DNA from: Blastococcus saxobsidens
GTDB lineage: Bacteria; Actinomycetota; Actinomycetes; Mycobacteriales; Geodermatophilaceae
DNA length: 64,000 bases
Assembly: GCF_002938435.1 (NCBI RefSeq)
Contig: NZ_POQT01000011.1
Span: 1-64,000, forward strand
Direction: 5' to 3'
Shown in pieces: positions 26,632 through 63,360 of this stretch (its first letter is position 1; each line of letters starts with the position of its first letter). Below the pieces are notes generated by a model. That model searched no databases, had not been told where the DNA came from, and was given only the letters and a program-made list of their open reading frames with translations. A program made the translations under genes and the position numbers.

Positions 26632-26712
26632 TAGAAGGACCCCGCTACCCCCCGCCCCTCGCATGCTCGCGGCGGGCCCCTGCAGCGGGGCCGTTCCAGC
26701 ACGTCACCACGG
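26632..26712 (+). repeat. interspersed hairpin repeat, copy A (dapE/dapD gap)
   Basis: Begins TAGAAGGACCCCGCT, has inner stem CCCGCC/GGCGGG around a TCGCATGCTC loop core, closes with AGCGGGGCC and ends GTTCCAGCACGTCACCACGG. It shares order, loop and tail with copies at 30841, 49733 and 63300 but with different, still complementary stem bases. This is the only copy not starting at a stop codon; it lies upstream of both divergent genes. Confidence 0.8.
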
Positions 26713-26730
26713 CTGGGTAGCGTCGTCGCC

Positions 26731-27720
26731 GTGACTGACGCAGCGTCCGCCCCCGTCTCCGCCACCTCCGCCGTCGCCGCCGGGCTGGCGACCGTCACCC
26801 CGTCCGGCACCGTCCTGGACACCTGGTACCCCGAGCCCCGGCTCGGCGCGCCCGGCGGGGCCGCCACGGGGACGACCCGGCTGGGCGCGCTGGAGCTCTC
26901 CGGCGAGCTGGGCCCCGACTACGGCGGCCTCGTGCGCACCGACGAGGCCCGCGGCGTGGAGATCATCGCCGTCCGCACCGTGATCGCCGACCTCGCCCAG
27001 CCGCCGGTCGACACCTACGACGTCTGGCTGCGGCTGCACCTGCTCTCGCACCGGCTGATCCAGCCGCACGGGGCGGACATGACCGGCGCCTTCGGCCTGC
27101 TCACCAACGTCGCCTGGACCAGCGCCGGCCCGGTCGAGGCGGCCGGGTTCAACGCGCACCGGCTGCGCGCCGCCGTCGGCCACGTGACCGTGTTCGGCGT
27201 CGACAAGTTCCCGCGGATGGTCGACTACGTCATCCCGACCGGTGTGCGGATCGCCGACGCCGACCGGGTGCGCCTGGGCGCCCACCTGGCCGAGGGCACC
27301 ACGGTCATGCACGAGGGCTTCGTCAACTTCAACGCCGGCACGCTGGGCCCCTCCATGATCGAGGGCCGGATCAGCGCGGGTGTCGTCGTCGGCGCCGACA
27401 GCGACATCGGCGGCGGCGCCTCGATCATGGGCACGCTCTCCGGTGGCGGCAAGGAGGTCATCTCGATCGGCACCGGGTGCCTGCTCGGGGCCAACGCCGG
27501 CATCGGCATCTCGCTCGGCGACGACTGCATCGTCGAGGCCGGCTGCTACGTCACCGGGGGCTCGCGGGTCACGCTGCCCGACGGCTCGGTGGTCAAGGCC
27601 CGGGAGCTCTCCGGCCGCGACGGCCTGCTCTTCCGCCGCAACAGCGTCAGCGGTGCGCTCGAGGTCGTCGTCCGGAAGGGCACCTGGGGCGCGCTGAACG
27701 CGGAGCTGCACGCCAACTGA
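26731..27720 (+). CDS. dapD: 2,3,4,5-tetrahydropyridine-2,6-dicarboxylate N-succinyltransferase
   Basis: 329 residues; a left-handed beta-helix acyltransferase that adds succinate to tetrahydrodipicolinate. The C-terminal hexapeptide repeat region ([20 protein letters not shown] and [20 protein letters not shown]) is clear, and the actinobacterial-type N-terminal domain has the [15 protein letters not shown] block. The GTG at 26731 is used. It divides the lysine branch with dapE (divergent) and dapC at 30.9 kb. There are only ~18 bases between repeat copy A and the start, so the repeat may lie in the leader. Confidence 0.95.
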
Positions 27721-27799
27721 CGCCCCGGCCGCCCGAGCGACGGACATCTCTTCCGCAGGCACAGGAACCACCCAGGAACCGCACCTACAGTCGCAGGCG

Positions 27800-28495
27800 A
27801 TGACCAGCCTCCGCACCGCGTCGCACCCTGCCGCGGCACGCACGGGGGCACGAGCGGGTGCGCGCTCGGACGGCCGCGGCCGGGGGGCGGGGCGCCGGGC
27901 ACCGGCCCGCCGGCCGGCGAAGAGGAAGCGCCGCGCGCCGCGCCGCAGCGGTGCCGCCGGGATCATGCGCTGGTGGCCGGCCCTGCTGATCGCGGCAGCG
28001 CTCGTCGCCGGAGCCGCCTGGGGCACCGAGCGGGCACCCAGGCCCGGCACGTGCACCCTGCCCGGCTCGTCGGTGACCCTCTCCGCCGACCAGATGGCCA
28101 ATGCGGCCACCATCGCGGAGGTGGGCTGGGACCGGGGCCTCCCGGACCGGGCAGTCGTCATCGCGCTGGCGACGGCGATGCAGGAGTCGACCCTGCGCAA
28201 CCTCGACTACGGCGACCGGGACTCGCTCGGGCTCTTCCAGCAGCGACCCTCGCAGGGCTGGGGCACACCCGAGCAGGTGCAGGATCCCGTCTACGCGGCC
28301 GGCCAGTTCTACGACCGCCTGGTCCAGATCCCTGAGTGGGAGTCCGGTCGATTGACGAATATCGCCCAGGCCGTCCAGATCTCGGGCCATCCAGAATTGT
28401 ACCAAAAGTGGCAGGAATTTGCACAAGAATTGACCACCATGCTGCAGTCCGGTGCTATGATGGACGACAACTGCTCGCGCCCCACGCCCATGTGA
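27800..28495 (+). CDS. putative membrane-anchored lytic-transglycosylase-like protein
   Basis: 231 residues. An Arg/Ala-rich basic N-terminus is followed by one helix (RWWPALLIAAALVAGAAWG, ~57-75) and an extracytoplasmic domain with MQESTLRNLDYGDRDSLGLF and QQRPSQGWGTPEQV, resembling the Glu-containing motif of SLT-like muralytic folds. Catalytic activity is unproven. The last ~50 codons (from about 28344) are conspicuously AT-richer than everything upstream: one full line (28381-28440) counts 28 G/C of 60, whereas the first part is over 70 percent. The protein pattern stays family-like, so the 3' end seems to come from another genome by recombination. Confidence 0.75.
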   Translation: MTSLRTASHPAAARTGARAGARSDGRGRGAGRRAPARRPAKRKRRAPRRSGAAGIMRWWPALLIAAALVAGAAWGTERAPRPGTCTLPGSSVTLSADQMANAATIAEVGWDRGLPDRAVVIALATAMQESTLRNLDYGDRDSLGLFQQRPSQGWGTPEQVQDPVYAAGQFYDRLVQIPEWESGRLTNIAQAVQISGHPELYQKWQEFAQELTTMLQSGAMMDDNCSRPTPM

Positions 28496-28570
28496 GACAC
28501 CATGTGGTGACCAAGCAGCGCGCCTGGAACACGACGGCGAATTGTCACCACCCTTCGAGATCATGCGTGC

Positions 28571-30169
28571 ATGGCCGCGCCACCCGAGCACTCGACCGCC
28601 ATCAGCCAGTTCTTGGGCGCAGCCCCTTTGGATCCCAAGTCGCCCCTGACCGCGGAAGTGCTCACGCAACTGTTCCTGCTGGGGTTGACGGCCGCAGAGA
28701 TCGGCGCTCTGTTTCGTCGGGACCCTGGCCAGATCAGGCGCATCGCGAGGAAGTGGGGACTCGACGGACGAAGTCTCCGAGCCGGCGCGGTCAGCATGGC
28801 CGTGCTGACGCCCACCCTGGCGGCCGAATTCCTGGAAGAAGTGGGGGGCTCGCGCAGGCGCGGACCCGAGCACCTGACCCTCGGCGCACCCGCCCGGTGC
28901 CGCTGGCGGTGCGCCTCCTGCGCATTCGAGTGGGAAGCCACGGTCAGCAATCGCGCCTTGCGCGGCTCGGGTTGCCCCTCGTGCGCGCGCCGACGCAATC
29001 GAGAGACCGCGTTGACCACTCGGGCGAAGACGCCGGCCCTTGCACTCGTCCGACCTGAGCTGGCCGCAGAGTTCGTGGAGAACGAAACAGTCCCCCAGAG
29101 GGATGCTTCATCTACGCCGGCGGGCAGCCACGACCGCATTCGTTGGCGATGCCGAGCGGGGCACGAGTGGGTCGCCAGCGCCAAGCAGCGCGTCTCACAT
29201 AGGACCAATTGCCCCGGATGTCGCCCTGGCTTCAGGAGCAGCCGGCTGGAGTACGACGTCGCTGAGCTGATCACCGTGGCCACCGGGCTGGGCGTCCAGG
29301 TCTCGCACGAGGAACCTCGGCAGGACAGGGCGGATGTGGAGCGCATCGACCTCTGGATCCAAGAGTTGGACATGCTCATCGATCTCGACCCGGAACGGTG
29401 GCACCGCGGCGAGGCGGCCAGAAGGCGCGACGCGCGGAAGCTCCGCCGCCTGGCATCCCGCAACTACGTACGCGCGCGATCGCTTCAACTCGGAGCGCTG
29501 GATGTCCCGCTGCCGCCGGGGAGTCGAGCCCGTCAGGTAATTCTTTCCGGTAGTGCTGACGGGGACCCGGAGCTGTGGCTCGCGGCCCTGGTTCCGATTC
29601 TGCGAGAGGGCTCCGCCCAGACCTCCACCCCCCTGACCCTGCCGAGAGCCGCCAAGGCCCAGGCATTGGGACGAGCCGCTCGGCGGTGGGCCGACCGCCA
29701 TCACGAACCTCGGGCTCGCAGCCTTGCCAGTGAGCATCCGCATCTCGCGACCGAGTTCGTGGCTGTGGTCGATCGTCCGGGACTCACCGCCGCAGATATT
29801 GCACCGGCCGGTGACGACCTCGTTCTCTGGCGCTGCACGGCCTGCCTCCACGAATGGCAGACCAAGACGAAAAACCGGACGCGCCTCGGGACCGGCTGTC
29901 CGCCCTGTCGCTATCAGCAAGGGGGGCGGCTCGCAGCACGAGCCGCACCCGGGAACAGCTTCGCCGACCGCAACCCGCAACTGGTCGACCAGTTCATCGC
30001 CAACAGGACACACCCAGGCGTCGGCCCGCGGGAATTCAAGCCGAACAGCACGGACAGCTGCGAATGGCGATGCCCGCGTTGTGATGCCACTTGGGTGACG
30101 AGCCCACAGTCCCGCAACCGTCGACCGGACGGAGGGTGCGGCTGCGGTCGACGCCGAAGCGGCAACTGA
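28571..30169 (+). CDS. zinc-finger (DUF4379-like) protein with PD-(D/E)XK-type nuclease-like domain
   Basis: 532 residues from an ATG. Residues ~38-67 look like a helix-turn-helix (LTAAEIGALFRRDPGQIRRI). Four treble-clef modules of the WxCxxxHxW...GCPxC type follow: C114/C117...C135/C138; C194/H198...C214/C217; C422/C425...C443/C446; C501/C504...C523/C525. Each is preceded by a P-x-LAxEF helix. Between modules two and three, residues ~225-310 resemble the Vsr/DUF559-like restriction fold: E227, then RIDLWIQELDMLIDLDPERW with D260 and D271, then R286-D287...K290. The gene is lower in GC (about 68 percent in hand-counted lines) than its neighbours, standing alone in an insert. Function is unknown; DNA binding or cleavage is inference. 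Confidence 0.8.
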   Translation: MAAPPEHSTAISQFLGAAPLDPKSPLTAEVLTQLFLLGLTAAEIGALFRRDPGQIRRIARKWGLDGRSLRAGAVSMAVLTPTLAAEFLEEVGGSRRRGPEHLTLGAPARCRWRCASCAFEWEATVSNRALRGSGCPSCARRRNRETALTTRAKTPALALVRPELAAEFVENETVPQRDASSTPAGSHDRIRWRCRAGHEWVASAKQRVSHRTNCPGCRPGFRSSRLEYDVAELITVATGLGVQVSHEEPRQDRADVERIDLWIQELDMLIDLDPERWHRGEAARRRDARKLRRLASRNYVRARSLQLGALDVPLPPGSRARQVILSGSADGDPELWLAALVPILREGSAQTSTPLTLPRAAKAQALGRAARRWADRHHEPRARSLASEHPHLATEFVAVVDRPGLTAADIAPAGDDLVLWRCTACLHEWQTKTKNRTRLGTGCPPCRYQQGGRLAARAAPGNSFADRNPQLVDQFIANRTHPGVGPREFKPNSTDSCEWRCPRCDATWVTSPQSRNRRPDGGCGCGRRRSGN

Positions 30170-30336
30170 CGCCAGCTGAGCCGTCGCCGGCGAACGCCCG
30201 GGCGTCGGCGGTGGACGGTCCGCGGAGCTCCTGATCGGTGGCGTCCCCCACAGTTGCGTCCGGACCCGTCCCCCTCCGGAGGGACATCCCGGTCCGGGCT
30301 CTCAACGAACCGGGCCGTGGCACCGACTGCTCAGCC

Positions 30337-30843
30337 ATGACGATCGCGCCGAACGACCATTCCCCGGCGGCCCGCGCCGCCGCTTCCGCGGTCGCCGACA
30401 TGCCGGTGCTGCTCCCCACCCGCGAGGGCCTGCTCGAGCGGCTCGCCGCCGACCTCCCCGCTTCCGGTGAGCAGCCGACCACGCTCCTGGTCATCGGGCT
30501 CCTCCGCCGCGACGACGGCTGGCCGACCCCGACGAGCACCCTGGCCCAGGTCACCCAGCTGTTCGCCCGCTCCGTCCGTGGCGACGACTGGCTCGGCGCC
30601 TGCGGGGCGGCCGAGTTCGCCATCGTCGTCGCCGGTGCCACCACCGCCGCGGAGGTCGCCGGGGCGCGCCTGATCACCGCGATCACCGCGCTCGGCGTCC
30701 CGGGGCTCTCCGCCGCGGCCGGCTACACCACGCTGCGGCCCGGGCTCCCGGCGAGCGAGGTCTTCCGCCGCGCGACGCTGAGCCTGACGGCGGCCCGCCG
30801 CGTGGGTGCCGGCACGGTCATCCGGTACCGCGAGCCTGTCTGA
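30337..30843 (+). CDS. degenerate GGDEF-like domain protein
   Basis: 168 residues from the ATG at 30337. The fold pattern of a diguanylate cyclase is recognisable: LLERLAADLP, LLVIGLLRRDDGW, then DDWLGACGAAEFAIVVAGAT, where the GGDEF loop has become GAAEF. Lacking the catalytic acidic pair and most nucleotide contacts, it should be catalytically dead and may act as a receptor or partner. The stop codon is the first triplet of hairpin repeat copy B. A 167-base non-coding stretch (30170-30336) separates it from the zinc-finger gene. Confidence 0.65.
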   Translation: MTIAPNDHSPAARAAASAVADMPVLLPTREGLLERLAADLPASGEQPTTLLVIGLLRRDDGWPTPTSTLAQVTQLFARSVRGDDWLGACGAAEFAIVVAGATTAAEVAGARLITAITALGVPGLSAAAGYTTLRPGLPASEVFRRATLSLTAARRVGAGTVIRYREPV

Positions 30844-30903
30844 AGAAGGACCCCCTGCCACCCACGGCTCGCACGCTCGCCGTGGGCCCCTGCAGGGGGC
30901 CTA
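30841..30903 (+). repeat. interspersed hairpin repeat, copy B (between convergent stops)
   Basis: Starts TGAAGAAGGACCCCCTGC, where TGA is the stop of the GGDEF-like gene. The inner stem CCCACGGC/GCCGTGGG encloses a loop with TCGCACGCTC, and the outer arm closes with GCAGGGGGCC. It ends exactly in the CTA that is the dapC stop on the other strand. The GTTCC...CACGTCACC tail of the other copies is absent. It probably works as a bidirectional terminator here. Confidence 0.8.
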
Positions 30904-32019
30904 ACGCAGGCGCTCCACTGCGGCATCGATCCGCTCGTCCGAGGCGGTCAGCGCCAGCCGGACGTGCCGGGCTCCGGCGGCTCCGTAGAAGCTCCCGGGA
31001 GCGGCGACGATGCCGAGCCCGGCGAGCCGGTCGATGGTGGTCCAGCAGTCCTCGTCCCGGGTGGCCCACAGGTACAGGCCCGCCTCCGAGTGGTCGATGC
31101 GCATGCCCGCGCCCCGCACCGCGGCGGCCAGCCGCTCGCGGCGGGCGCGATAGCGCTCGCGCTGGGCGTCGACGTGCGCGTCGTCGTCCAGGGCCGCGAC
31201 CATCGCCGCCTGCACCGGCGCCGGGACGAGCAGCCCCAGGTGGCGGCGGACCTCCCACACCCGGCGCACCAGCACGGGGTCACCGGACAGCAGACCGCCG
31301 CGGTACCCGGCGGCGGTCGACTGCTTGGACAGCGAGTGCACCGCGAGCAGACCGGTGTGGTCCTCCCCCGCGATCGCCGGGTGCAGGATCGAGCGCGGAG
31401 ACACGTCCCAGCCGAGGGTGATGTAGCACTCGTCGGCGACCACCGGCACGCCGTGCGCCCGGCCCCACTCGACCCAGGCCCTCAGCTGCTCGTCGGTGAG
31501 GACCCGGCCGTGCGGGTTCCCCGGCGAGTTCAGCCAGACCAGCGACACCGCGCCGGCATCGGCAGGCGGGGCGTCGCACCGGCGCACCGAGAGCCCGGCC
31601 AGCACCGCGCCGACCTCGTAGGTGGGATAGGCGATCTCGGGCAGCAGCACCGTGGTCGCGCTGCCCTGCAGGCCCAGCAGGGTCGGTAGCAGGGCGACGA
31701 GCTCCTTGGACCCCACCGTGGGGATCACCGACGGTTCCGCGCCGGCCGGATCGGCGATCTCGACGCCGAGCCGGCGCCGCAGCCAGCCGGCGGCGGACGC
31801 GCGCAACGCCGTCGTCCCCAGGGCCGTCGGGTACCCGGGCGCATCAGCGGCAGCGGCGAGCGCCTCCCGGAGGACCGGTGGCGTGCTGTCGACCGGGGTG
31901 CCGATCGAGAGGTCGACGACCCCGCCGGCGTGCTGGGCGGCACGCGCCCGGGCCCCGGCAAGGGAGTCCCACGGGAAGTCCGGCAGCGCGCGGGGCGCGC
32001 CGGGCGCCGGAGTGGTCAG
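30901..32019 (-). CDS. dapC: succinyldiaminopimelate transaminase
   Basis: PLP-dependent aminotransferase (class I/II) that converts N-succinyl-2-amino-6-ketopimelate to N-succinyl-LL-DAP with glutamate. It has 372 residues if read from a CTG at 32019 that overlaps the ferredoxin TGA (CTGA). The protein has NSPGNPHGRVL, the VVADECYITLGW aspartate region and the PLP lysine in VHSLSKQSTAAGYRGG. No ATG, GTG or TTG lies between the ferredoxin stop and the conserved core LPDFPWDSL, which makes the CTG start likely. The fdxA-dapC pair is a common actinobacterial arrangement. Confidence 0.92.
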   Translation of the reverse strand: MTTPAPGAPRALPDFPWDSLAGARARAAQHAGGVVDLSIGTPVDSTPPVLREALAAAADAPGYPTALGTTALRASAAGWLRRRLGVEIADPAGAEPSVIPTVGSKELVALLPTLLGLQGSATTVLLPEIAYPTYEVGAVLAGLSVRRCDAPPADAGAVSLVWLNSPGNPHGRVLTDEQLRAWVEWGRAHGVPVVADECYITLGWDVSPRSILHPAIAGEDHTGLLAVHSLSKQSTAAGYRGGLLSGDPVLVRRVWEVRRHLGLLVPAPVQAAMVAALDDDAHVDAQRERYRARRERLAAAVRGAGMRIDHSEAGLYLWATRDEDCWTTIDRLAGLGIVAAPGSFYGAAGARHVRLALTASDERIDAAVERLR

Positions 32020-32342
32020 TGGCCTTCGCCCTGCGGCGGCAGCGCGGCCACCAGCGGATGGTCCTTGCCGACCTTGCCGGTCTTCGCCGCACCGCCGGGG
32101 CTGCCCAGGTCGGAGAAGAACTCCACGTTGGCGTTGTAGAAGTCCTTCCACTTGTCCGGGACGTCGTCCTCGTAGTAGATGGCCTCGACCGGGCACACCG
32201 GCTCGCACGCACCACAGTCCACGCACTCGTCGGGGTGGATGTAGAGCATCCGGTCGCCCTCGTAGATGCAGTCCACCGGACACTCGTCGATGCACGCCTT
32301 GTCGAGAACGTCGACGCAGGCCTGGGTGATGACGTAGGTCAC
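32016..32342 (-). CDS. fdxA: 7Fe/8Fe-type ferredoxin
   Basis: 108 residues from the GTG at 32342 (GGGAGGG upstream). The N-terminus TYVITQACVDVLDKACIDEC and the second cluster motif CVDCGACEPVCPVEAIY give a [3Fe-4S][4Fe-4S] or two-[4Fe-4S] ferredoxin of the mycobacterial FdxA type, with the usual acidic C-terminal extension (PDKWKDFYNANVEFF). A longer in-frame extension upstream has no homology. It is co-translated with dapC, a conserved but unexplained coupling in actinobacteria. Confidence 0.94.
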   Translation of the reverse strand: MTYVITQACVDVLDKACIDECPVDCIYEGDRMLYIHPDECVDCGACEPVCPVEAIYYEDDVPDKWKDFYNANVEFFSDLGSPGGAAKTGKVGKDHPLVAALPPQGEGH

Positions 32343-32528
32343 GGGGTTCCCTCCCGGGGACGTTCGGGCGGCGCCTTCGGCCGGGACCGGGGCGCCAGAT
32401 GCGCGTCCAGTATCACCTGCCCGGTCGCCGTCCGTTCGGCGGGCCACCTGGTCAGGGGGCCCTCACCCGTTGGGGGTGCGGCGCAGGTCCCCGCTCAAGA
32501 CGGGGTCGCGGACGCCGATCCTGACGAC

Positions 32529-35390: not shown

Positions 35391-35442
35391 CCGGAGGGGG
35401 TCGCCCGGTCGGTCACGGGGGGCGGGCACCAGGATCGTCGCC

Positions 35443-37477: not shown

Positions 37478-37550
37478 GAGGAGGCATTCTCCCTGAGGCG
37501 GCCCGGGGCGCGAACGGGTCGGGGTGCACCCGCGTCCTCCCCCACCGCAA

Positions 37551-49028: not shown

Positions 49029-49735
49029 CGACGGCCATCTCGCCGACGCCGGAGCTCGCTGCCGACGCCGACGCCCGCTTCGAGGGCATCGCCGACCCGG
49101 TGGAGCAGGCCCTGGCCGTGCTGCGCTGGGCCGGGGAGATTTTCGGCGACCAGTTCGCCATCACCTCCTCCATGGCCGACGGGCTGCTGTCGCACCTGGC
49201 CTCCCGGGCGGTCCCCGGCGTCAACGTGGTCTTCCTCGACACCGGCTACCACTTCGCCGAGACCATCGGCACCCGCGACTGGATCAGCAGCGTGCTGCCG
49301 ATCACCCTGCACAACGTCACCCCACCGCAGACCGTGGCGGAGCAGGACCTCTCCTTCGGGCCGGAGCTGCACGACCGCGACCCCGATCTGTGCTGCGAGC
49401 TGCGCAAGGTCAAGCCGCTGGCCCAGGCCCTGGCCGGTTTCGCGGCCTGGGGTTCCGGGGTGCGCCGGGACGAGTCGCCGACCCGGGCGGGCACGAAGCT
49501 GGTCGACTGGGACGCCAAGCGCGGCATGGTGAAGGTCAACCCGATGGCGGCCTGGACCCAGGACGTCGTCGACGCCTACGTCGCCGAGCACCGGATCCCG
49601 GTGAACCCGCTGTTCGAGCTGGGCTACGGCTCCATCGGCTGCGCGCCGTGCACCCGCCCGGTCGCCCCGGGCGAGGACCCGCGCGCCGGGCGCTGGGCGG
49701 GGTCGAACAAGACCGAGTGCGGCCTCCACACCTGA
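49025..49735 (+). CDS. cysH: adenylyl-sulfate (APS) reductase, CysH family
   Basis: 236 residues from an ATG. Reduces adenylated sulfate to sulfite with thioredoxin-like donors. The Fe-S ligand set C123-C124 (DLCCELRKVK) and C206-x2-C209 (GCAPCTRP) marks the 4Fe-4S APS-reductase subtype rather than PAPS reductase, and the catalytic Cys is C232 in ECGLHT. Nucleotide-binding region: FAITSSMADGLLSHLA; VFLDTGYHFAET. The stop TGA is also the start of hairpin repeat copy C. Confidence 0.95.
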   Translation: MTTAISPTPELAADADARFEGIADPVEQALAVLRWAGEIFGDQFAITSSMADGLLSHLASRAVPGVNVVFLDTGYHFAETIGTRDWISSVLPITLHNVTPPQTVAEQDLSFGPELHDRDPDLCCELRKVKPLAQALAGFAAWGSGVRRDESPTRAGTKLVDWDAKRGMVKVNPMAAWTQDVVDAYVAEHRIPVNPLFELGYGSIGCAPCTRPVAPGEDPRAGRWAGSNKTECGLHT

Positions 49736-49815
49736 CGAAGGACCTCGTCCCTCCCCCACCCTTCGCGAGCTCAGGGCGGGCCCCTGGGACAAGACCGTTC
49801 CAACACGTCACCATG
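49733..49815 (+). repeat. interspersed hairpin repeat, copy C (after cysH)
   Basis: Starts with the cysH stop (TGACGAAGGACCTCGTCCC), has a TCGCGAGCTC loop core between CCC and GGG, closes with GGGACAAGACC and ends GTTCCAACACGTCACCATGG. The outer stem is the least regular of the four copies. It stops just before the GTG of the PCD gene, so it may act both as transcript end and as leader. Confidence 0.8.
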
Positions 49816-50111: not shown

Positions 50112-50115
50112 ACGC

Positions 50116-50155
50116 ACGACGGCGCCGGCCCCGGTCGGGGCCGGCGCCGTCGTGT
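50116..50155. terminator. bidirectional terminator between PCD and phoX
   Basis: CACGACGGCGCCGGCCCC (50116-50133) pairs perfectly over 18 bases with its complement at 50138-50155 around the loop GGTC. It lies between two convergent stops (50111 and 50169). Confidence 0.85.
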
Positions 50156-52403: not shown

Positions 52404-52461
52404 CGGTCCCTCTGGTCGCGAGGCGGTGGGGGCCTATGCACCCAAACCGACCGCCGCCACC

Positions 52462-52483: not shown

Positions 52484-52513
52484 GGAGGATGTCCTCCGGC
52501 CACCGTTTTGCGG

Positions 52514-53757: not shown

Positions 53758-53911
53758 AGTGCGGTCAACCTACGCCCGCGGTCCGCCGGACGGCCCCCGT
53801 GCCGGGGCAGGTCGCCCCCCGGCAGGGGGACAGCGGCTCCGACATGCTCAAGGCGAGACCCACGGCCGCCGATTCCGCGGGGAGAGGACGGCCCTGATCT
53901 GGGAGGTGCGC

Positions 53912-55474: not shown

Positions 55475-55500
55475 CAGCTCCGGCGGGGCACACTGCCCCC

Positions 55501-56058
55501 GTGGGCCTGTTCCGGACGACCGATCCCGCCGCTCTCACCGACCTCCCGTTCAGCTATGCGGAGGTGGGTGCCACCGGCGACGACCTGCTGCCGACCGGCT
55601 ACCGCCTCGCCGAGCACTCCGCGGTGGTGGGCGCGGGACAGGAGGCCCTCGAACGGGCCGCCGCGGCCGTCTTCGACTGGCGGGCCCAGCGCGGCGCCGG
55701 TCTGCGCATCCGCGCCACCGGTCCGGCCAGCGCGCCGGGCACCGTCGTCGTCCTCACCGCCGGACTGCCCCGGCTCGGCTACGACATCCCCTGCCGCGTG
55801 GTCTGGGCCAGCACCGAGGGCCCGGAGCGGGGGTTCTCCTACGGCACGCTGCCCGGCCATCCGGAGAGCGGCGAGGAACGGTTCACCGTGCGCCTCACCG
55901 ACGACGGCGACGTCGTCTACACGATCCGGGTCTTCTTCCGGCTGGCCTCCCCGGCCGCCCGGCTGGCCGGTCCGTTCAGCCTCGTGCTGCAGCGGGCGGC
56001 CACCGCCCGCTACGTGTCGGCGATCCGCCGCGCCACCGCAGGTCAGACGTCCCGGTGA
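55501..56058 (+). CDS. DUF1990 family protein
   Basis: 185 residues from a GTG. DUF1990 pattern: FSYAEVGATGDDLLPTGYRL, AAAAVFDWRAQRGAGLRI and RGFSYGTLPGHPESGEERF. Members resemble SRPBCC-like folds and occur in actinobacteria and plants; the biochemical role is unknown to me. The last 16 bases overlap the convergent ABC permease gene. Confidence 0.9.
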   Translation: MGLFRTTDPAALTDLPFSYAEVGATGDDLLPTGYRLAEHSAVVGAGQEALERAAAAVFDWRAQRGAGLRIRATGPASAPGTVVVLTAGLPRLGYDIPCRVVWASTEGPERGFSYGTLPGHPESGEERFTVRLTDDGDVVYTIRVFFRLASPAARLAGPFSLVLQRAATARYVSAIRRATAGQTSR

Positions 56059-56792
56059 GCCAGCAGCACGGCGCCGAGGACCCAGGTGGCCACCGCCCAG
56101 GAGCCGAGCACGAGCAGCCCCAGCTGCCAGGTCGTCTGGACGGCGAGGAACGCGTCCTCCCCCACCCGGAGCGCCGGCACGAACCGCCCGATCCGCTCGC
56201 CGGCCGAGGTCTCGGAGATGGCGAGCAGCGGGTGGAGCAGGAACAGCACGCCGAAGGACACGCCCAGCGCGCCCGCCGACGAGCGCAGCAGCGCGCCCAG
56301 CCCGAGGGCGAGCACGCCGGTCAGCGTCGCGGCAGCGACCTGCACCCCCAGCTGGCGGACGACGCCCGGGTCGGTGAGCGGGATGCCGCCCTCGACGTAG
56401 GTGAGCCGGCCGGCGGCGAACCAGCAGAACAGCGCGAGCGACGACGACAGCAGCACGCACCAGACGGCGACGACGACGGTCTTGGCCAGCAGCAGCCTCC
56501 CCCGCCGCGGCACCGACGTGAACGAGGCCAGCACCATGCCCGTGCGGAACTCGCCGGTGACGGCGAGGACGGCGAACACGACCAGGACGATCTGCCCGAA
56601 GCCGAACCCGGTGAGCGCGGAGCCGACCGCGAGGTCGGGCTGCGGGGCGGACTGGGTGATCGCGGCACCGAACCACCCGCCGGCGCCGACCACCAGCAGG
56701 TACAGGGCGGTGCACCACCACGTCGAGCGCAGCGACCGCAGCTTGGTCCACTCGCTGGCGACCAGAGAGCGGAACGGCACCCCCCGGGTCAC
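56043..56792 (-). CDS. ABC-2 type exporter permease
   Basis: 249 residues from the GTG at 56792, overlapping the ATPase stop by 4 bases. It begins VASEWTKLRSLRSTWWCTAL, the typical start of ABC-2 permeases, and has six hydrophobic segments (e.g. VLALGLGALLRSSAGALGVS and LGLLVLGSWAVATWVLGAVL). With the upstream ATPase it forms an exporter of unknown substrate, possibly an antibiotic, lipid or lantibiotic-immunity type. Confidence 0.92.
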   Translation of the reverse strand: MTRGVPFRSLVASEWTKLRSLRSTWWCTALYLLVVGAGGWFGAAITQSAPQPDLAVGSALTGFGFGQIVLVVFAVLAVTGEFRTGMVLASFTSVPRRGRLLLAKTVVVAVWCVLLSSSLALFCWFAAGRLTYVEGGIPLTDPGVVRQLGVQVAAATLTGVLALGLGALLRSSAGALGVSFGVLFLLHPLLAISETSAGERIGRFVPALRVGEDAFLAVQTTWQLGLLVLGSWAVATWVLGAVLLAHRDV

Positions 56793-57691
56793 CGGGGCGC
56801 CGCCCGGTACTCGACGTCGTCGCCGGTGAGCTCCAGGTAGGCCGCCTCGAGCGACGCGGTGATCCGGGCCAGCTCGTGGACCCGCGCACCGGTGGCGAAG
56901 GCGATGTCGCCGATGGCCGCGGCGTCGAGCCCCTCGACCTTGAGGGCGCCGTCGATCTCCAGCTCGACGTGTCCGCCCGCCCGCTGCAGCGCGGAGGCCA
57001 GCAGCGGCGCCTGCGGGCTGCGCACCCGGACGGCGGCGTGCGCACCCAGCAGGTCGGCCATCGGGAGGTCGGCGAGCAGCCGGCCACGGCCGAGCACCAC
57101 CAGGTGGTCGGCGGTGTCCTCCATCTCGCTCATCAGGTGGCTGGAGACCAGCACCGTGCGGCCCTCGTCGGCGAGCACCCGGAGCAGCCCGCGGACCCAG
57201 CGGATGCCCTCGGGCTCCAGCCCGTTGACCGGCTCGTCGAGCAGCAGGACGTCCGGGTCGCCGAGCAGGGCCGCCGCGATGCCCAGCCGCTGCCCCATGC
57301 CGAGGGAGAAGCCGCCCACCCGGTCGTCGGCGACCGACTCCAGCCCGACCAGCTCGATGACCTCGTCGACGCGCGCCCGCGGCAGGGCGTTGCTCTGCGC
57401 CAGGGCCAGCAGGTGCGAGCGGGCGGTCCGCCCGGGGTGGCGGGCGCGGGGGTCGATGAGGGCGCCGACGCGGCGCATCGGGCGGGCCAGCTCGCGGTAG
57501 GGGTGGCCGAGCACCGTCGCCGTCCCCGCGGTGGGCCGGGTGAGGCCGAGGACGCACCGCATCGTCGTCGTCTTGCCCGAACCGTTGGGCCCCAGGAAGC
57601 CGGTCACCCGGCCGGGCTCGATCGTGACCGTCAGCGCGTCGACCGCGACGCGGGAGCGGTACCGCTTCGTCAGGGAGCGCAGCTCGATCAC
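56789..57691 (-). CDS. ABC exporter ATP-binding protein
   Basis: 300 residues from the GTG at 57691. Walker A is GPNGSGKTTTMRCVLGL, the signature FSLGMGQRLGIAAAL, Walker B VLLLDEPVNGLEPEG, and the switch histidine is in VLVSSHLMSEM. It belongs to the DrrA/CcmA-like group that pairs with ABC-2 permeases. The C-terminal ~80 residues are the usual regulatory extension. It forms a two-gene operon with the permease downstream. Confidence 0.94.
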   Translation of the reverse strand: MIELRSLTKRYRSRVAVDALTVTIEPGRVTGFLGPNGSGKTTTMRCVLGLTRPTAGTATVLGHPYRELARPMRRVGALIDPRARHPGRTARSHLLALAQSNALPRARVDEVIELVGLESVADDRVGGFSLGMGQRLGIAAALLGDPDVLLLDEPVNGLEPEGIRWVRGLLRVLADEGRTVLVSSHLMSEMEDTADHLVVLGRGRLLADLPMADLLGAHAAVRVRSPQAPLLASALQRAGGHVELEIDGALKVEGLDAAAIGDIAFATGARVHELARITASLEAAYLELTGDDVEYRAAPR

Positions 57692-57738
57692 GGGGCAAGC
57701 ATGGCGAACGCGCCGCGGCGCACACCGCAGGCGCGCGC

Positions 57739-58605
57739 CTAGTGACCGTCGGCGACAGCCGCCCGTTCCCGCTCGATGAGCTCCTTGCTGCGCACCAGCC
57801 GCAGCAGCGTGACCACCAGCAGCCCGCCGGCCATGTTGAGCAGCACCGTGTACCAGAACCAGGCGATCCAGTCGCCGTAGCCGATCGGCCCGCCGGCGTG
57901 GATGCCGGCGAAGATGATCAGCGAGTCCAGGACCGAGTGGAACAGCACGAGGCCGGCGAGCACGAACGCTCCGGCCACGGCGGCGACGATCTTGCCGCCC
58001 TCGCTCTCCGCACCCTGCTGCATGCGGGTCATCAGCGTGATGGAGCTGCCGGCCAGGAAGGCCAGGGCCATCGACTGCAGGTTCAGCGGGGCGTCGACGA
58101 ACTCGGTGGCCGATTCCACCGCCGTCGCGCCGAGCTCGGGCAGCGCGACCACCACGACCCACATGACCAGCCAGCCGCCGACCAGGTTGGCCACCAGGGT
58201 GCCGCTCCACAGCCGGGCCAGCTGGCCGATCCGGGCACGGCCGGCGACCACGGCCGTCACCGGCAGGAGGAAGCCCTCGGTGAACAGCTCGCTGCGGGCC
58301 AGCAGGAGGGCGATGAAGCCGACGCTGAAGGCCAGGCCGGCCAGCAGGTGGCTGCCCGTCTCGGCGTACACGGCCAGCAGCGCGAGCACGCCCACGCCGA
58401 CCTCGAAGCCGCCGGCCAGACCGGTGGTGAGCACCTCGCGCCAGGTGCGGTGCAGCCGCTGGGCCCCCTCGTCGACGACGCGGTCGAAGGCCTGCACCAC
58501 CTCGTCCTCGACGGGGGCGTCGCTGCTGCCGAGCTCCTCGCGTGCGCTCTGCTCGTCCGCGGCGTCCTGCGGGCTCCGCTCGTCACGGGCATGGTCCAGT
58601 GCCAC
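57739..58605 (-). CDS. formate/nitrite transporter (FNT) family channel
   Basis: 288 residues from the GTG at 58605, chosen because GGAGGAGG lies just upstream; a longer frame extends further but is Arg/Ala-rich without homology. After an acidic ~50-residue N-terminus there are six helices with FNT-type half-helix motifs (TGLAGGFEVGVGVLALLAVY; LLARSELFTEGFLLPV; AGSSITLMTRMQQG). FNT channels move formate, nitrite or other small monoacids. A SigB-like promoter precedes it, back to back with that of the catalase gene. Confidence 0.88.
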   Translation of the reverse strand: MALDHARDERSPQDAADEQSAREELGSSDAPVEDEVVQAFDRVVDEGAQRLHRTWREVLTTGLAGGFEVGVGVLALLAVYAETGSHLLAGLAFSVGFIALLLARSELFTEGFLLPVTAVVAGRARIGQLARLWSGTLVANLVGGWLVMWVVVVALPELGATAVESATEFVDAPLNLQSMALAFLAGSSITLMTRMQQGAESEGGKIVAAVAGAFVLAGLVLFHSVLDSLIIFAGIHAGGPIGYGDWIAWFWYTVLLNMAGGLLVVTLLRLVRSKELIERERAAVADGH

Positions 58606-58665
58606 GGGGCCTCCTCCGGCTCCGGACGCCGACGCCACGGCTCGGCGGCGTGTCCGCATGGCGGG

Positions 58666-58690
58666 CTACCCGCGCGGATGCGGCCCACAC
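58666..58690 (-). promoter_or_regulatory. SigB/SigF-like promoter of the FNT gene
   Basis: On the minus strand GTGT (58690-58687), a 15-base spacer, and GGGTAG (58671-58666), about 60 bases upstream of the FNT GTG. The elements match the general-stress sigma consensus GTTT-N15-17-GGGTAT except for single changes. Confidence 0.55.
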
Positions 58691-58737
58691 CGACTGCCCC
58701 GTCACCGGCCGGCGCCTCCCGCCCTGCGGAAGGCGCC

Positions 58738-58764
58738 GTTTCCCCGATGCGACGGCCCGGGTAG
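58738..58764 (+). promoter_or_regulatory. SigB/SigF-like promoter of the catalase gene
   Basis: GTTT (58738-58741), a 17-base spacer, and GGGTAG (58759-58764), about 40 bases before the catalase start. The -35 match is perfect and the -10 differs only in the last base. Stress-sigma control is established for katE-type catalases in other bacteria. Confidence 0.65.
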
Positions 58765-58804
58765 CCGCCCGGAGATCGAAGCAGCCCGATGATCAGGAGA
58801 ACCC

Positions 58805-60928
58805 GTGCCCCCCACGCGCAAGCCGAACACGTCCGCCCCCAGGACCGTCAGCCCCACCGGCGTCGGCTACGACGGACCCGAGGACGGCCGCGACCCGCGG
58901 GCCCAGGCCGGCGACACGCTGACCACCCCGAACGGTGTCCGCGTCGCCGACACCGACCACTCGCTCAAGGCGGGGCCCCGCGGCCCGGTGCTGCTGGAGG
59001 ACTTCCACCTCCGCGAGAAGATCATGCACTTCGACCACGAGCGCATCCCGGAGCGCGTCGTGCACGCCCGGGGCGCCGGCGCGCACGGCGTCTTCACCGC
59101 CTACGGCACGGCGTCCAAGGTCACGCGCGCCGCGGTGCTGGCCGAGAAGGGCCTGCAGACGCCGGTCTTCGTGCGGTTCTCCACCGTGCTGGGCTCGCGC
59201 GGCTCGGCCGACACGGTGCGCGACACCCGCGGGTTCGCGACGAAGTTCTACACGAAGGAAGGCACCTGGGACCTGGTCGGCAACAACATGCCGATCTTCT
59301 TCATCCAGGACGCGATCAAGTTCCCGGACATCATCCACGCGGGCAAGCCGCACCCGGATCACGAGATCCCCCAGGCGCAGTCGGCCCACGACACGTTCTG
59401 GGACTTCGTCACGCTCCACACCGAGGCCACCCACCACACGATCTGGAACATGAGCGACCGGGGCATCCCGCGCAGCTACCGGACGATGGAGGGCTTCGGC
59501 GTCCACACCTTCAGGCTGGTCAACGCCGAGCGCGAGACCGTCCTGGTGAAGTTCCACTGGAAGCCGAAGCTCGGCGTGCACTCCCTCACCTGGGAGGAGG
59601 CGCAGATCGCCGGCGGCGTCGACCCGGACTTCCACCGTCGCGACCTCTACGAGTCGATCGAGGCCGGCGCCTTCCCGGAGTGGGAGCTCGGCATCCAGGT
59701 CTTCCCCGACACCCCCGAGGAGACGTTCGAGGGGATCGACCTGCTCGACCCGACCAAGATCGTGCCGGAGGAGCTCGCCCCGGTGCAGCCCATCGGCCGG
59801 CTGGTCCTGAACGCCAACCCGACCAACTTCTTCGCCGAGACCGAGCAGGTCGCCTTCCACACCGGTCACCTGGTGCCGGGCATCGAGGGCACCAACGACC
59901 CGTTGCTCCAGGGCCGCAACTTCTCCTACCTGGACACCCAGCTCTCCCGGCTGGGCGGGCCGAACTTTACCCAGATCCCGATCAACCGCCCGCACGCGCC
60001 GGTGAACGACAACACCCGCGACGGCTTCCACCAGCACGCCGTCCACCAGGGGCAGGCGCCGTACACGCCGAACTCGGTCGACGGCGGCAGCCCCTTCCCG
60101 GCCGACTGGTCGGAGGGCGGGTACGTGCACGTGCCGCGCGTGGTCAGCGGCCAGGTGGCCCGCACCGCACCGGCGTCCTTCGACGACCACTACTCGCAGC
60201 CGGCGCTGTTCTACAAGAGCCTGACCACCATCGAGCAGCAGCACGTGGTCGACGCCTACACCTTCGAGCTCGGCAAGTGCTTCGAGCAGCCGATCAAGGA
60301 GCGCGCGCTCACCGTCCTGGCCCGCATCCACGCGGACCTGTGCTCGCAGGTGGCCGCCGGGCTCGGGCTCCCGGTGCCGAAGAAGATCAAGGCGGAGAAG
60401 GTGCGGGGTGAATCTCCGGCCCTGCGCCAGATCAAGCCCACGCCCTTCCCGATCGACGGCCGGATCATCGGCGTCGTCGCCGGGCCGGAGGCCGACCTCA
60501 GGGGCATCGCGAAGCTGCGGGCGGCGCTCGAGGCCGAGGGCGCCCAGGTCAAGGTCGTCGCCCCGCACGGCGGGCAGCTGGTCAGCGGCAAGGACGTCGA
60601 GATCGTCGAGCGGACCTTCGCCACCGGCCGGTCCATCGAGTTCGACGCGATCGTCGTCGCCGACGGCGCACCGAAGGACGGTGACTTCCGCGCCCTGGTG
60701 ATGCTGCAGGAGGCGTTCCGCCACCTGAAGGGCATCGGGGCCTGGGGCGACGGCGTCGAGGTGCTGCGCGCCGCCGGCATCGACCCGAAGGCCCCGGGCG
60801 TGATCACCGGCAGGAAGGCGAACGCCGCGATGGCCGCCGAGACCGTCGCAGCCCTGGGCATGCACCGCGCCTGGGACCGCACCCCGCTGGTTCGCTCGTC
60901 GATGGTGCCGCCGACCGTCCGCGCCTGA
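58805..60928 (+). CDS. katE: large-subunit monofunctional catalase (HPII/KatE type)
   Basis: 707 residues from a GTG, with AGGAG 6 bases upstream. Converts hydrogen peroxide to water and oxygen. The distal histidine is H87 in RVVHARGAGAHG and the heme-ligand tyrosine is Y375 in NFSYLDTQLSRLGG; the substrate-channel Asn is in FFIQDAIKFPD. After ~residue 540 a flavodoxin/DJ-1-like C-terminal domain (GVVAGPEADLRGIAKLRAAL) marks the large-subunit clade-2 catalases, which resist heat and denaturants. It fits an organism exposed to oxidative and desiccation stress. Confidence 0.96.
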   Translation: MPPTRKPNTSAPRTVSPTGVGYDGPEDGRDPRAQAGDTLTTPNGVRVADTDHSLKAGPRGPVLLEDFHLREKIMHFDHERIPERVVHARGAGAHGVFTAYGTASKVTRAAVLAEKGLQTPVFVRFSTVLGSRGSADTVRDTRGFATKFYTKEGTWDLVGNNMPIFFIQDAIKFPDIIHAGKPHPDHEIPQAQSAHDTFWDFVTLHTEATHHTIWNMSDRGIPRSYRTMEGFGVHTFRLVNAERETVLVKFHWKPKLGVHSLTWEEAQIAGGVDPDFHRRDLYESIEAGAFPEWELGIQVFPDTPEETFEGIDLLDPTKIVPEELAPVQPIGRLVLNANPTNFFAETEQVAFHTGHLVPGIEGTNDPLLQGRNFSYLDTQLSRLGGPNFTQIPINRPHAPVNDNTRDGFHQHAVHQGQAPYTPNSVDGGSPFPADWSEGGYVHVPRVVSGQVARTAPASFDDHYSQPALFYKSLTTIEQQHVVDAYTFELGKCFEQPIKERALTVLARIHADLCSQVAAGLGLPVPKKIKAEKVRGESPALRQIKPTPFPIDGRIIGVVAGPEADLRGIAKLRAALEAEGAQVKVVAPHGGQLVSGKDVEIVERTFATGRSIEFDAIVVADGAPKDGDFRALVMLQEAFRHLKGIGAWGDGVEVLRAAGIDPKAPGVITGRKANAAMAAETVAALGMHRAWDRTPLVRSSMVPPTVRA

Positions 60929-60939
60929 CCCACTGCGCG

Positions 60940-60979
60940 CGAGAGCGCCGGTCCTGCGCGTGCGGGACCGGCGCTCTCG
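60940..60979. terminator. bidirectional terminator between katE and the aldehyde dehydrogenase
   Basis: CGAGAGCGCCGGTCC (60940-60954) pairs perfectly with GGACCGGCGCTCTCG (60965-60979), with a ten-base loop, between two convergent stops (60928 and 60986). Confidence 0.85.
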
Positions 60980-60985
60980 TGCGTG

Positions 60986-62557
60986 TCAGCGGATGAAGGG
61001 GGCGCGCTCGAGCGCCTTGAGGCCGGCCGTCATCACCTTCGCGTAGCGGTCCAGCGGCAGGCCCGGCATGGGGCCGACCGGCAGCCCGCGCTGGACGGCG
61101 ACGGTCTGGCTCTCGGTGTACTTGAGGATGCCCTCGCGCCCGTGCCGGCGGCCCACGCCGGAGTCCTTCATGCCGCCCATGGGCGCGTCGTGCGACGCCC
61201 AGGCCGCGGCGTAGGCCTCGTTGACGTTGACCGTGCCGGCCTGGATACGGGTGGCGAGCTCCGCACCGCGCGCCGGCGTCGTCCAGATGCTGGCGTTCAG
61301 CCCGTACTCGGTGTCGTTGGCCCGCTCGACCGCCTCCTCGGCGTCGCGCACCCGGCTGATCGCCACGACCGGCCCGAAGGTCTCGCCCCGGGCCAGCTCC
61401 ATGTCGTCGGTGACGCCCTCGAGCACGGTCGGCTCGTAGAACAGCGGGCCGAGGTCGGGCCGCGCCTTCCCGCCGGCGAGCACGCGGGCCCCCTTCGCGA
61501 CGGCGTCGTCGACGTGCCGGGAGACGACGTCGAGCTGGTCGGCGCTGACCAGCGAGCCCATCTCGGCCTCCCACGTCAGCCCCGCGGCCAGCTTCATGCG
61601 CTCCACCCGCTCGACGAACGCCGGGACGAAGCGGTCGTAGATGCCGTCCTCCACGTACATGCGCTCCACCGAGATGCACAGCTGGCCGGAGTTGGAGAAG
61701 CAGGCGCGCACCGCGCCCTCGACGGTCCTGTCCAGGTCGGCGTCGGCCAGCACGACCATCGGGTTCTTGCCGCCGAGCTCCGCGGAGAAGCCGATCAGCC
61801 GCCGCGCGCACTGCTCGGCGACGATCCGCCCGGTGGCGGTGGAGCCGGTGAACATCAGGTAGTCGACGCCCTCGATCAGCGGGGTGCCGAGGTCGCGGCC
61901 GGCGCCGGTGACCACCTGGAACAGCTCCCGGGGCAGGCCGGCCTCGAGGAGCAGCTCGACGGCGATGAGCGCGGTGAACGGCGTCTGGGCGTCGGGCTTG
62001 AGGACGATGCCGTTCCCGGCCAGGAGCGCCGGGATCGCGTCGGAGACGGCGAGCGTGAGCGGGTAGTTCCACGGGCTGATGACGCCGATCAGGCCCTTGG
62101 GGTGGTGGTGCTCGACGGTGCGGGTCAGCACCGGCAGGGCGCCCTGGCGGCGGGTCGGGCGCAGGTGCCTGGCCGAGGTGTTCGCGTAGTACCGCGCGGT
62201 CATGGCGACGTCGGCCAGCTCCTCGAAGGCACTCACCCGCGCCTTGCCGGTCTCGGCCTGCGCGACGTCGAGGATCTGCTCCTGCCGCTCCAGGACCAGG
62301 TCGTGGTAGCGCAGCATCACCGCGGCCCGCTCGGCCAGCGGACGCCGCGCCCACTCCGCCTGCGCCGCCCGCGCCCGCCGCTGTGCCTCCCGGACGTCGT
62401 CGGCGGTGCAGGTCGGCACCTCGCCGACGACGTCTCCGGTGAACGGCGCGTACGAGGCCTGGCGGGGCCGGTCGGGCGCGGCGGTGACCAGGGCGGCGAG
62501 CCGGGAGACCAGCGCCGGGTCCAGAGCCGGGGACGGGTGCGGGGCGGTCGTCGTCAT
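60986..62557 (-). CDS. succinate-semialdehyde dehydrogenase-like aldehyde dehydrogenase
   Basis: 523 residues from the ATG at 62557. NAD(P)-dependent oxidation of an aldehyde, probably succinate semialdehyde (GabD2-like actinobacterial group). Landmarks: SPWNYPLTLAVSDAIPALLA, FTGSTATGRIVAEQC, catalytic Glu in AELGGKNPMVVLAD and catalytic Cys in CFSNSGQLCISVERMY. The exact substrate rests on overall resemblance and is not proven. Downstream it converges with katE; upstream it is 19 bases from the flavin reductase gene, so the three minus-strand genes may be one operon. Confidence 0.9.
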   Translation of the reverse strand: MTTTAPHPSPALDPALVSRLAALVTAAPDRPRQASYAPFTGDVVGEVPTCTADDVREAQRRARAAQAEWARRPLAERAAVMLRYHDLVLERQEQILDVAQAETGKARVSAFEELADVAMTARYYANTSARHLRPTRRQGALPVLTRTVEHHHPKGLIGVISPWNYPLTLAVSDAIPALLAGNGIVLKPDAQTPFTALIAVELLLEAGLPRELFQVVTGAGRDLGTPLIEGVDYLMFTGSTATGRIVAEQCARRLIGFSAELGGKNPMVVLADADLDRTVEGAVRACFSNSGQLCISVERMYVEDGIYDRFVPAFVERVERMKLAAGLTWEAEMGSLVSADQLDVVSRHVDDAVAKGARVLAGGKARPDLGPLFYEPTVLEGVTDDMELARGETFGPVVAISRVRDAEEAVERANDTEYGLNASIWTTPARGAELATRIQAGTVNVNEAYAAAWASHDAPMGGMKDSGVGRRHGREGILKYTESQTVAVQRGLPVGPMPGLPLDRYAKVMTAGLKALERAPFIR

Positions 62558-62576
62558 GGCGCCACCTTGCCGCAGG

Positions 62577-63299
62577 TCAGGTGGCTCCGCCGCTGGGACC
62601 GAACTGCTCCACCCGGATGGCCGCCGCCGGGATGCCGAGCGTCTCGAGCAGCCGGGTGGCCGCCCCGGCGAACGCGGCCGAGCCGCACACGAACGCCGTC
62701 TGACCGGGCTCCCACAGCGGCACGAGGTCCGCGGCGCTGAGCCGGCCGGCGGGGCGGATGCCGCTCGGCTCACGGGTGGTCGCGACCAGCGCCCCGGCGG
62801 CCCACAGCTCGTCGGCGTAGGGCAGCAGCTCCAGCTCGCGGACCGAGACCGCGATGCGGAGCAGGTCGGTGCGCCCGAGGGCCCGGGCGGTGCGCAGCAT
62901 CGACACGAACGGGACGACGCCGCTGCCGCCGGCGACCAGCAGGGCCGGCGTCGCGCCGTCCCACACGAACCAGCCGCCGATCGGACCGCGGACCTCCAGC
63001 TCGTCGCCGGGCTCCACGACGTCGGCCAGGTGGGTGGACACCTCGCCGTCGTCCAGCCGCTCGACGAACAGCTCCACCAGCGGGTCGCCCGGGGCGGAGG
63101 CGATCGAGTACGACCGCTGGGCGGTGTAGCCGTCGGGCGCGGTGAGCCGCACCACGTAGTGCTGGCCGGGCAGGTGGTCCACGCGGTCGGCGACGTCGAG
63201 CCGCAGCTGCACCGAGCGCGGCACGGAACGTCGCACGCCGGCGACCGTGGCGGTGCGCCACCCGCCGCTGGGCGCACCGGCGACCCCGGCACCGAGCAC
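62577..63299 (-). CDS. FAD/NAD(P)-binding ferredoxin-reductase-like protein
   Basis: 240 residues from the GTG at 63299. An FNR-fold reductase: the FAD motif RSYSIASAPGDP and the NAD(P)-binding region LLVAGGSGVVPFVSMLR with FVCGSAAFAGAATRLLE are clear. No plant-type ferredoxin domain is attached. It follows a YedY/sulfite-oxidase-like gene, a pairing seen in other actinobacteria, so it may pass electrons to or from that molybdoenzyme. Hairpin repeat copy D ends directly at its start codon. Confidence 0.9.
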   Translation of the reverse strand: MLGAGVAGAPSGGWRTATVAGVRRSVPRSVQLRLDVADRVDHLPGQHYVVRLTAPDGYTAQRSYSIASAPGDPLVELFVERLDDGEVSTHLADVVEPGDELEVRGPIGGWFVWDGATPALLVAGGSGVVPFVSMLRTARALGRTDLLRIAVSVRELELLPYADELWAAGALVATTREPSGIRPAGRLSAADLVPLWEPGQTAFVCGSAAFAGAATRLLETLGIPAAAIRVEQFGPSGGAT

Positions 63300-63357
63300 G
63301 GCCCCGTCCAGAGGCTCGCCCCGAGCTTGCGAGGGGTGAGGAGGACGGGGTCCTTCT

Positions 63358-63360
<3 letters not shown>
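63300..63360 (-). repeat. interspersed hairpin repeat, copy D (molybdoenzyme/reductase gap)
   Basis: On the minus strand: TGAAGAAGGACCCCGTCC, where TGA is the stop of the upstream molybdoenzyme gene, inner CCCC/GGGG stem with loop core TCGCAAGCTC, then the closing arm GGACGGGGCC, immediately followed by the GTG start of the reductase. It fills the entire gap between two genes of an apparent operon. Confidence 0.8.

Follow-up and report, generated by a model that had tools for sequence, protein, structure and literature searches.

Hairpins behind stop codons in Geodermatophilaceae: a probable new family of very small mobile elements

Repetitive extragenic palindromic (REP) elements have been reported mostly from Proteobacteria, and those of the GTAG type are tied to RAYT transposases. 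Among actinobacteria, the interspersed repeats of Mycobacterium called MIRU are said to insert at DTGA, i.e. at stop codons, and are not known to have dyad symmetry; our literature search found no source paper for this insertion at TGA. Integron attC sites are yet another kind of folded DNA, with a bottom strand that folds, free stem sequences and a GTTRRRY core. Here, we describe a family of hairpin elements represented by four copies (A to D) in a 64,000-nucleotide stretch of a Blastococcus saxobsidens contig (NZ_POQT01000011.1, positions 1 to 64,000; hereafter the window), in which the initial annotation had reported an intergenic repeat with co-varying stems. The four copies are present at the positions that it gave, and they belong to a hairpin family with about 200 members per genome. 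It knew of no published name for the repeat, and our own literature search, with a coverage largely without subscription papers, found neither a description nor a name among the matches listed.

In reports on REP elements, TnpAREP of Escherichia coli is described as a strand-specific enzyme that cuts at CT next to the hairpin and depends on a mismatch in the stem (PMC8266576), and REP stems are noted to keep their complementarity, with complementary mutations in the stems (PMC2817692). Also described are CGTC-tagged REPs, REP-like repeats without a dedicated transposase that carry a CGTC tag at one end, a stem of 8-9 bp and a loop of 4-5 nt (PMC3733652). The present family is similar to REP elements of the GTAG superfamily (RAYT/TnpAREP) in that it consists of short, imperfect, extragenic hairpins, present in many copies and mostly behind coding regions (PMC8266576, PMC3733652, PMC2817692), with a mismatch or bulge in the stem and a short motif at one foot. 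REP elements undergo strand-specific recognition as single strands, and a strand bias is indicated here by wobble counts.

In contrast with REP/RAYT systems, no RAYT (Y1) match was found in 36 Geodermatophilaceae genomes. Among the 71 copies analysed below, the nucleotides from -6 to +2 at the element edge contain the GTAG tag in only 8 and GT(A/G)G in 13, as opposed to a stop-like triplet in 58. The same positions contain CT(A/G)(A/G) in 41 copies, which is reminiscent of the CT cleavage reported for TnpAREP (PMC8266576). The unit is also longer than the 20-40 bp REP palindrome, with a two-stage hairpin and, in some copies, a 16-nt tail. Because there is no RAYT match, no constant GTAG and a longer unit, we do not class the family as a member of REP/RAYT. 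It shares with the CGTC-tagged REPs the absence of an identified dedicated transposase but differs from them in sequence, and the accessible main text of that article makes no mention of actinobacteria, Geodermatophilus, Blastococcus or Modestobacter (PMC3733652). With attC sites, touched upon in one passage of PMC8266576, the family has in common the bottom-strand fold and the free stems; however, it harbours GTTCCA rather than GTTRRRY, and its copies are mostly single and dispersed, not arranged in cassette arrays.

Copy number, distribution and fold

A loose pattern composed of motifs from the initial annotation (GAAGGACC-N10,35-TCGCNNGCTC) matched the whole host genome 82 times (41 per strand), against one match for the reversed control. 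With the closing GGNCC added, it yielded three matches in the window and none in 100 shuffles; copy C is missed because its closing end reads GACC. The tail motif alone, with 167 matches at up to three mismatches (23 beside known copies) against 93 reversed, was unusable as a search key; GAAGGACC alone gave 111 matches, of which 40 were at known copies, and its reversal gave 148. The covariance-model search for more copies that the initial annotation had proposed was performed with a model (R1) seeded with 16 copies of equal length. It returned 71 copies in contigs C1-C7, C10 and C11 of the host genome (G000; 1,615,974 bases), which extrapolates to ~199 per genome, and at least 150 copies over the whole genome. 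The pieces of G000 that were read cover about 36% of it. The best pair among the 71 copies is 87.5% identical and the median identity is 68%; judged by this divergence, the copies are not young. A single pair of neighbouring copies is less than 600 bp apart, so that the family has no REP-dimer habit.

The family is nearly confined to Geodermatophilaceae. Among 60 genomes drawn for comparison, 32 of the 36 Geodermatophilaceae (host included) contain the exact pattern, with 1 to 82 copies each, as do five of 24 other genomes of the order, with one match each, a number that the reversed control also reaches in single genomes. Counted by this pattern, the copy number ranges from 0 to 82 inside one genus. 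The Geodermatophilaceae genomes G022, G027, G030 and G032 have no copies. R1 matches (E up to 1e-4) occurred in 17 of 121 genomes of the order, i.e. 15 Geodermatophilaceae and two genomes of two different other families, which hold 2 copies and 1 copy, respectively; more Geodermatophilaceae may be among the 84 unlisted genomes that had no match. With R1 at E up to 1e-5 and stricter filters, a draw of 246 genomes of the class gave matches in the host genome only. Low-copy genomes also occur within the genus, with 0 (G022), 2 (G010), 5 (G021) and 13 (G016) R1 copies. Among relatives reached through a dapD search, for which R1 was run on 24 of the 80 loci and on the window, Blastococcus (L034, L035) and Geodermatophilus (L038) give clear matches and Modestobacter (L039) a weak one, of 25 bits. 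The DapD matches to Blastococcus, at 88-89%, assign the window to this genus or its immediate neighbourhood, and its family is accordingly taken as Geodermatophilaceae. The rare copies in the two other families of the order (G089:C17:105-163 and 2601-2656; G098:C6:468-525) each follow a TGA at the end of a called gene, and the one in G098 precedes rplU-like and rpmA-like genes, named by eye.

The elements are 57-75 nt long, and their core comprises 57 positions with 18 pairs in two stems. The outer stem closes with GG(bulged T)CC. Beyond an asymmetric internal loop comes the inner stem, in which one G-T/G-U pair is favoured and which ends in a near-constant loop, GAGCNNGCGA. The internal loop parting the two stems (2 vs about 5 nt) is a correction to the initial annotation. 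The tail GTTCCA(G/A)CACGTCACC, reported as an extra of copies A and C, is indeed found in both and is rather a part of the unit, full or partial in 26 of the 71 copies and absent in 42. The edges of the unit are sharp: with a query holding copy A, matches typically begin at query positions 384-387 and end near 459. No Rfam family matched the window at the gathering score, and around copy D a search with E up to 10 yielded nothing but three lncRNA/miRNA matches that scored well under their cut-offs.

The stems covary. For the 71 copies, the covariation score (0.427) is above that of shuffles (0.143), none of 500 of which scored as high, and 188 cells are double-changed against 57 in shuffles; 96.5% of the cells pair, and both sides have changed in 16 of the 18 pairs. 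In a second set, composed of 25 copies (23 distinct rows) of which 22 come from other genomes, the scores were 0.505 and 0.191, respectively. Both alignments were fitted to the model, which leans towards structure. The strand assignment of the initial annotation has to be reversed, however, since the better fold lies on the complement. On that strand, the 71 copies have 75 G-U pairs against 11 A-C. As a model-fitted alignment could favour G-U, the count was redone without the covariance model: inner stems parsed by string alone, in 66 of the 71 copies, contain 62 G-U against 6 A-C; without the favoured fifth pair, the counts are 20 and 3 (p 0.0005). This excess of G-U indicates that the selected fold is antisense to the upstream gene. 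Strand-specific wobble and double changes thus point, indirectly, to a folded single strand as the feature that matters. RNA folds of the single copies, with z-scores of -0.7 to -3.4, are also better on the complement strand in all four window copies and are not decisive alone.

Phasing with stop codons and turnover of sites

We determined the gene contexts of 69 of the 71 copies, the other two being located at contig edges, with genes called by a simple codon-usage script. The strand bias relative to genes is pronounced. In sense behind a gene are 58 copies, 35 of which precede a gene of the same direction and 23 a convergent one; of the others, six lie in antisense between tandem genes and five between divergent genes. 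The orientation in tandem gaps is thus 35 to 6 (p 5e-6), and the gap classes depart from the background (p 4e-5). The distance from the stop codon to the GAAGG of the element is between -3 and +3 in 49 of the 58 sense copies and exactly +1 in 30. TGA, proposed earlier as the host stop, serves in 37 of these 49 phased genes; the others have TAG (8) or TAA (4). As all called genes together have 1234 TGA, 162 TAG and 27 TAA stops, TAG and TAA are not avoided.

Stop-like triplets are not restricted to copies behind genes. They are present between -6 and +2 in 50 of the 58 sense copies, in 6 of the 11 others and in both edge copies. Outside the sense-behind-gene class, 8 of 13 copies therefore have such a triplet by the edge, against 8.6% of random intergenic windows (p 3e-6). 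Seven of the 71 copies were marked as falling within a called gene, in some cases perhaps through errors in gene calling.

To follow the sites between close species, 400 kb were compared between G000 and G018, with long matches of 89% median identity. Ten element sites from G000 and four from G018 were comparable; of the 17 G000 elements on C5, C10 and C11, seven were not, nor were six of the 10 G018 elements, including two weak ones (31 and 23 bits). None of the 14 compared sites is shared. With window loci A, B and C added, one of 13 G000 sites is shared with G018, i.e. that of copy B, where both genomes have nearly the same element. In all 14 filled/empty pairs, the left match stops between -3 and +2 nt from GAAGG. 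On the other side, 15 to 170 target bases (once 1227) are unmatched before the right flank resumes. Hence, in contrast with classical miniature inverted-repeat transposable elements, no target-site duplication is visible in these pairs, all 14 of which have at least 15 such unmatched bases. As a control, we determined whether the first 30 nt after the stop are at least 70% identical. This is the case for 46 of 79 element-free gene ends and for 1 of 11 beside an element (Fisher p 0.003), which ties the break in the match to the element.

The three window loci were also traced through 23 genomes of the genus. At locus A, the dapE-dapD spacer, seven genomes have an R1 match, in forward orientation in four (G000, G005, G006, G020) and inverted in three (G001, G008, G019); degenerate remnants are seen by eye in G011, G014 and G015. 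The CCTAG that precedes the forward insertions also occurs in several empty alleles. For locus B, both flanks were located in 12 genomes, three of which are occupied. At locus C (cysH-pcd), seven genomes are occupied, one has a tail-only remnant, 14 are empty and G007 is ambiguous. Thirteen of the empty alleles read CACCTGA at the gene end and one reads CACCTGTAG. In the occupied alleles, the element directly follows the stop, which is TGA in six and an overlapping TAA in one. An exact GGGAGG ahead of the next start was seen by eye in six empty alleles and in none of the occupied ones. The widespread empty allele of locus C suggests a direction of change between gain and loss.

Occupied and empty sites also stand side by side in named Blastococcus genomes. 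Two of their four locus A spacers (L034, L035) have elements with quite different yet self-complementary stems and, beside them, extra 3' half copies, and the other two (L036, L037) are empty. On the 3' side of dapD, an element is present in L034, L035 and L038; its opposite orientation in L035 suggests inversion in place or an independent insertion.

Remnants seen by eye include tail-only, hairpin-deleted and 3'-half copies. At G000:C4:7818-7847, the 5' arm GAAGGACCCCGTCC runs straight into the tail, a structure that would fit an excised hairpin. At G000:C7, about 71382-71591 (L293), the 3' half and the tail of an element are repeated behind it in tandem 45-bp copies, with three more tail matches 45 bp apart. 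Tandem element matches with a 66-bp period occur in another genome of the genus (G013:C24:140450-140641 and G013:C18:2-127). At G000:C5:129658-129714, compared by eye with G018, the element seems to replace the first codons of the downstream gene.

A putative mobile hairpin and alternative explanations

The initial annotation had offered two candidates for the repeat. We consider the first of them, a REP-like mobile element with a preference for stops, to be the probable explanation, in the form of a family of short non-autonomous hairpins that work in a REP-like manner and insert 3' of T(A/G)(A/G), the mover of which was not found. Site turnover, stop-codon phasing and the stop-like triplets at the other copies support this reading. 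The complement of the strand first annotated would fold into the two-stage hairpin, and a trans-acting nuclease or transposase specific for single strands would recognise the fold, the loop and the ends. This enzyme would then join the element right at the 3' side of a T(A/G)(A/G) triplet, in many cases one with a C before it. In a GC-rich genome, such triplets would mostly be stop codons or, on the other strand, promoter hexamers of the TAGG type (the latter judged by eye), so that the element would pile up in sense behind stops, where it would do least harm. We infer an enzymatic insertion that acts on single-stranded DNA and costs the target some of its DNA on the tail side.

Several points weigh against this proposal. 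The search for a cognate transposase found none. Y1_Tnp (PF01797, RAYT-type) had no match in the 36 Geodermatophilaceae genomes; it was found in 3 of the 60 genomes overall, all of other families, and in 5 of 14 control genomes. RVT_1, searched for in the host and 21 other genomes of the genus, is present in 4 of these 22 and absent from G000, while a search for Y2_Tnp (IS91-type) matched nothing, controls included, and is hence uninformative. No common mobile gene was recognised beside the copies in 5 of 12 regions, from the two other-family and three low-copy genomes, with gene starts read by eye and without Pfam. A recent burst is not seen either, as no pair of copies exceeds 87.5% identity, and 13 of the 71 copies lack a stop-like triplet at the edge. 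Finally, the sharp left edge is partly expected, since coding conservation ends at stops anyway, which the spacer control softens without removing, and the apparent loss of target bases can be, at least in part, ordinary spacer divergence.

No mobile carrier was recognised in other searches. Judged by eye from the sequence starts, without a family search, neighbouring G000 copies have no common mobile gene between them, and copy A had no match in plasmid and phage records. In IMG/VR, at least 120 viral stretches hold the loose pattern, and R1 at E up to 0.01 matches none of 120 of them (80 + 40).

A transposase-orphan hairpin is a less likely alternative. According to this explanation, host enzymes would take up nuclease-resistant single-stranded hairpin fragments at replication forks, anchored by short TGA/TAG homology, in place of a short stretch of target. 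If so, stop codons would be the main landing sites for purely compositional reasons. The literature search returned nothing on short-patch double illegitimate recombination.

The second candidate of the initial annotation was a transcription terminator or 3'-UTR (untranslated region) RNA module, carried by the mRNA of the upstream gene and kept by selection at gene ends. The prevalence of sense copies behind genes, including those between convergent genes, the skewed gap classes, the stable GC-rich stems and the retention of copy B between G000 and G018 are in line with it. However, the mRNA strand would have the favoured A-C mismatch, with G-U solely on the antisense strand, and five copies are located between divergent genes. 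Unlike intrinsic terminators, the elements have no T run, and a terminator scan was empty at copies A, B, C and D, its sole match being just outside copy C. Nor are they retained behind the same gene in relatives, as G018 lacks the element at all 10 compared G000 sites. In addition, at C5:54187 and C5:73661, separate terminator-like hairpins were seen by eye 3' of the element, and the empty alleles of G018 likewise have one after the stop. The antisense fold, the empty sites and these two hairpins make this candidate improbable.

We regard as similarly doubtful a protein-binding or DNA-topology site useful to the host (gyrase-, nucleoid- or replication-linked), spread by recombination between strains and kept where useful, with turnover reflecting gain and loss of sites. 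The near-constant loop and ends with free stems do resemble a protein recognition site, and the same spacers are repeatedly occupied in different species with different stems, as at loci A and C (7 of 23 genomes each). In contrast, relatives with no or almost no copies live (G022, G010), and exact TGA/TAG phasing is not expected of such a site. A retroelement akin to short interspersed nuclear elements, its antisense RNA reverse-transcribed from a nick behind TGA, would account for the exact stop-side edge, the variable tail side and the structured strand, which would be the RNA, but it is very improbable, given the absence of RVT_1 from G000 and from the high-copy genomes G006, G008, G019 and G020.

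The REP-like mobile hairpin remains our preferred explanation, and the copies seem to form a novel family of very small mobile elements and not to be ordinary signals of gene ends, as far as sequence comparison, from which all the evidence comes, can tell. A large and fast-changing actinobacterial hairpin population, phased with stops and with no recognised mover, may provide a clean natural system for how such repeats move. With occupied and empty sites in named Blastococcus genomes, direct tests are possible of how the element inserts, how its targets are chosen and whether target DNA is lost; at cysH-pcd, the DNA possibly lost includes a likely ribosome-binding site. For terminator prediction, the family calls for caution, as hairpins right after stop codons are not always terminators.

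The window copies and their surroundings

The four window copies were delimited with R1 and their flanking genes mostly identified with Pfam. Copy A (26632..26708, plus strand) consists of a noncoding TAG (26632-26634), a hairpin core (26634-26692) and the tail GTTCCAGCACGTCACC (26693-26708). It lies between a dapE-like gene on the minus strand, with a start at about 26611-26620, and a dapD-like gene on the plus strand at 26731, the dap names being our own. According to the wobble counts, its modelled folded strand is 26634..26692 on the minus strand, the complement of the one first annotated, and likewise for the other copies. As reported earlier, copies B, C and D begin with the TGA stop of the upstream gene, in place of which copy A has its noncoding TAG.

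Copy B (30841..30901, plus strand) comprises the TGA (30841-30843) and a core (30845-30901) without a tail. The gene before it is on the plus strand, and the aminotransferase gene after it, which ends at 30901, is convergent. Copy C (49733..49812, plus strand) is composed of the TGA (49733-49735), a core (49737-49796), in which one outer pair is broken by eye, and the tail GTTCCAACACGTCACC (49797-49812); it separates a PAPS-reductase (cysH-like) gene from a pterin-4a-carbinolamine dehydratase gene. Copy D (63300..63360, minus strand), also devoid of a tail, has its TGA at 63360-63358 and its core at 63356-63300. It follows a molybdopterin oxidoreductase-like gene and adjoins the next called gene (62577-63299, minus strand), as had been noted, although the GTG start at 63299 is a choice of the gene caller.

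Two further features of the window are worth mentioning. An open reading frame at 28571-30169 contains four DUF4379 (treble-clef zinc finger) stretches, and a peptide scan of the genome contigs found no relative of it. At 50115-50154, right after the stop of the pterin-4a dehydratase gene and before a convergent gene, there is a long GC palindrome that resembles an ordinary terminator hairpin and is devoid of the motifs of the family.

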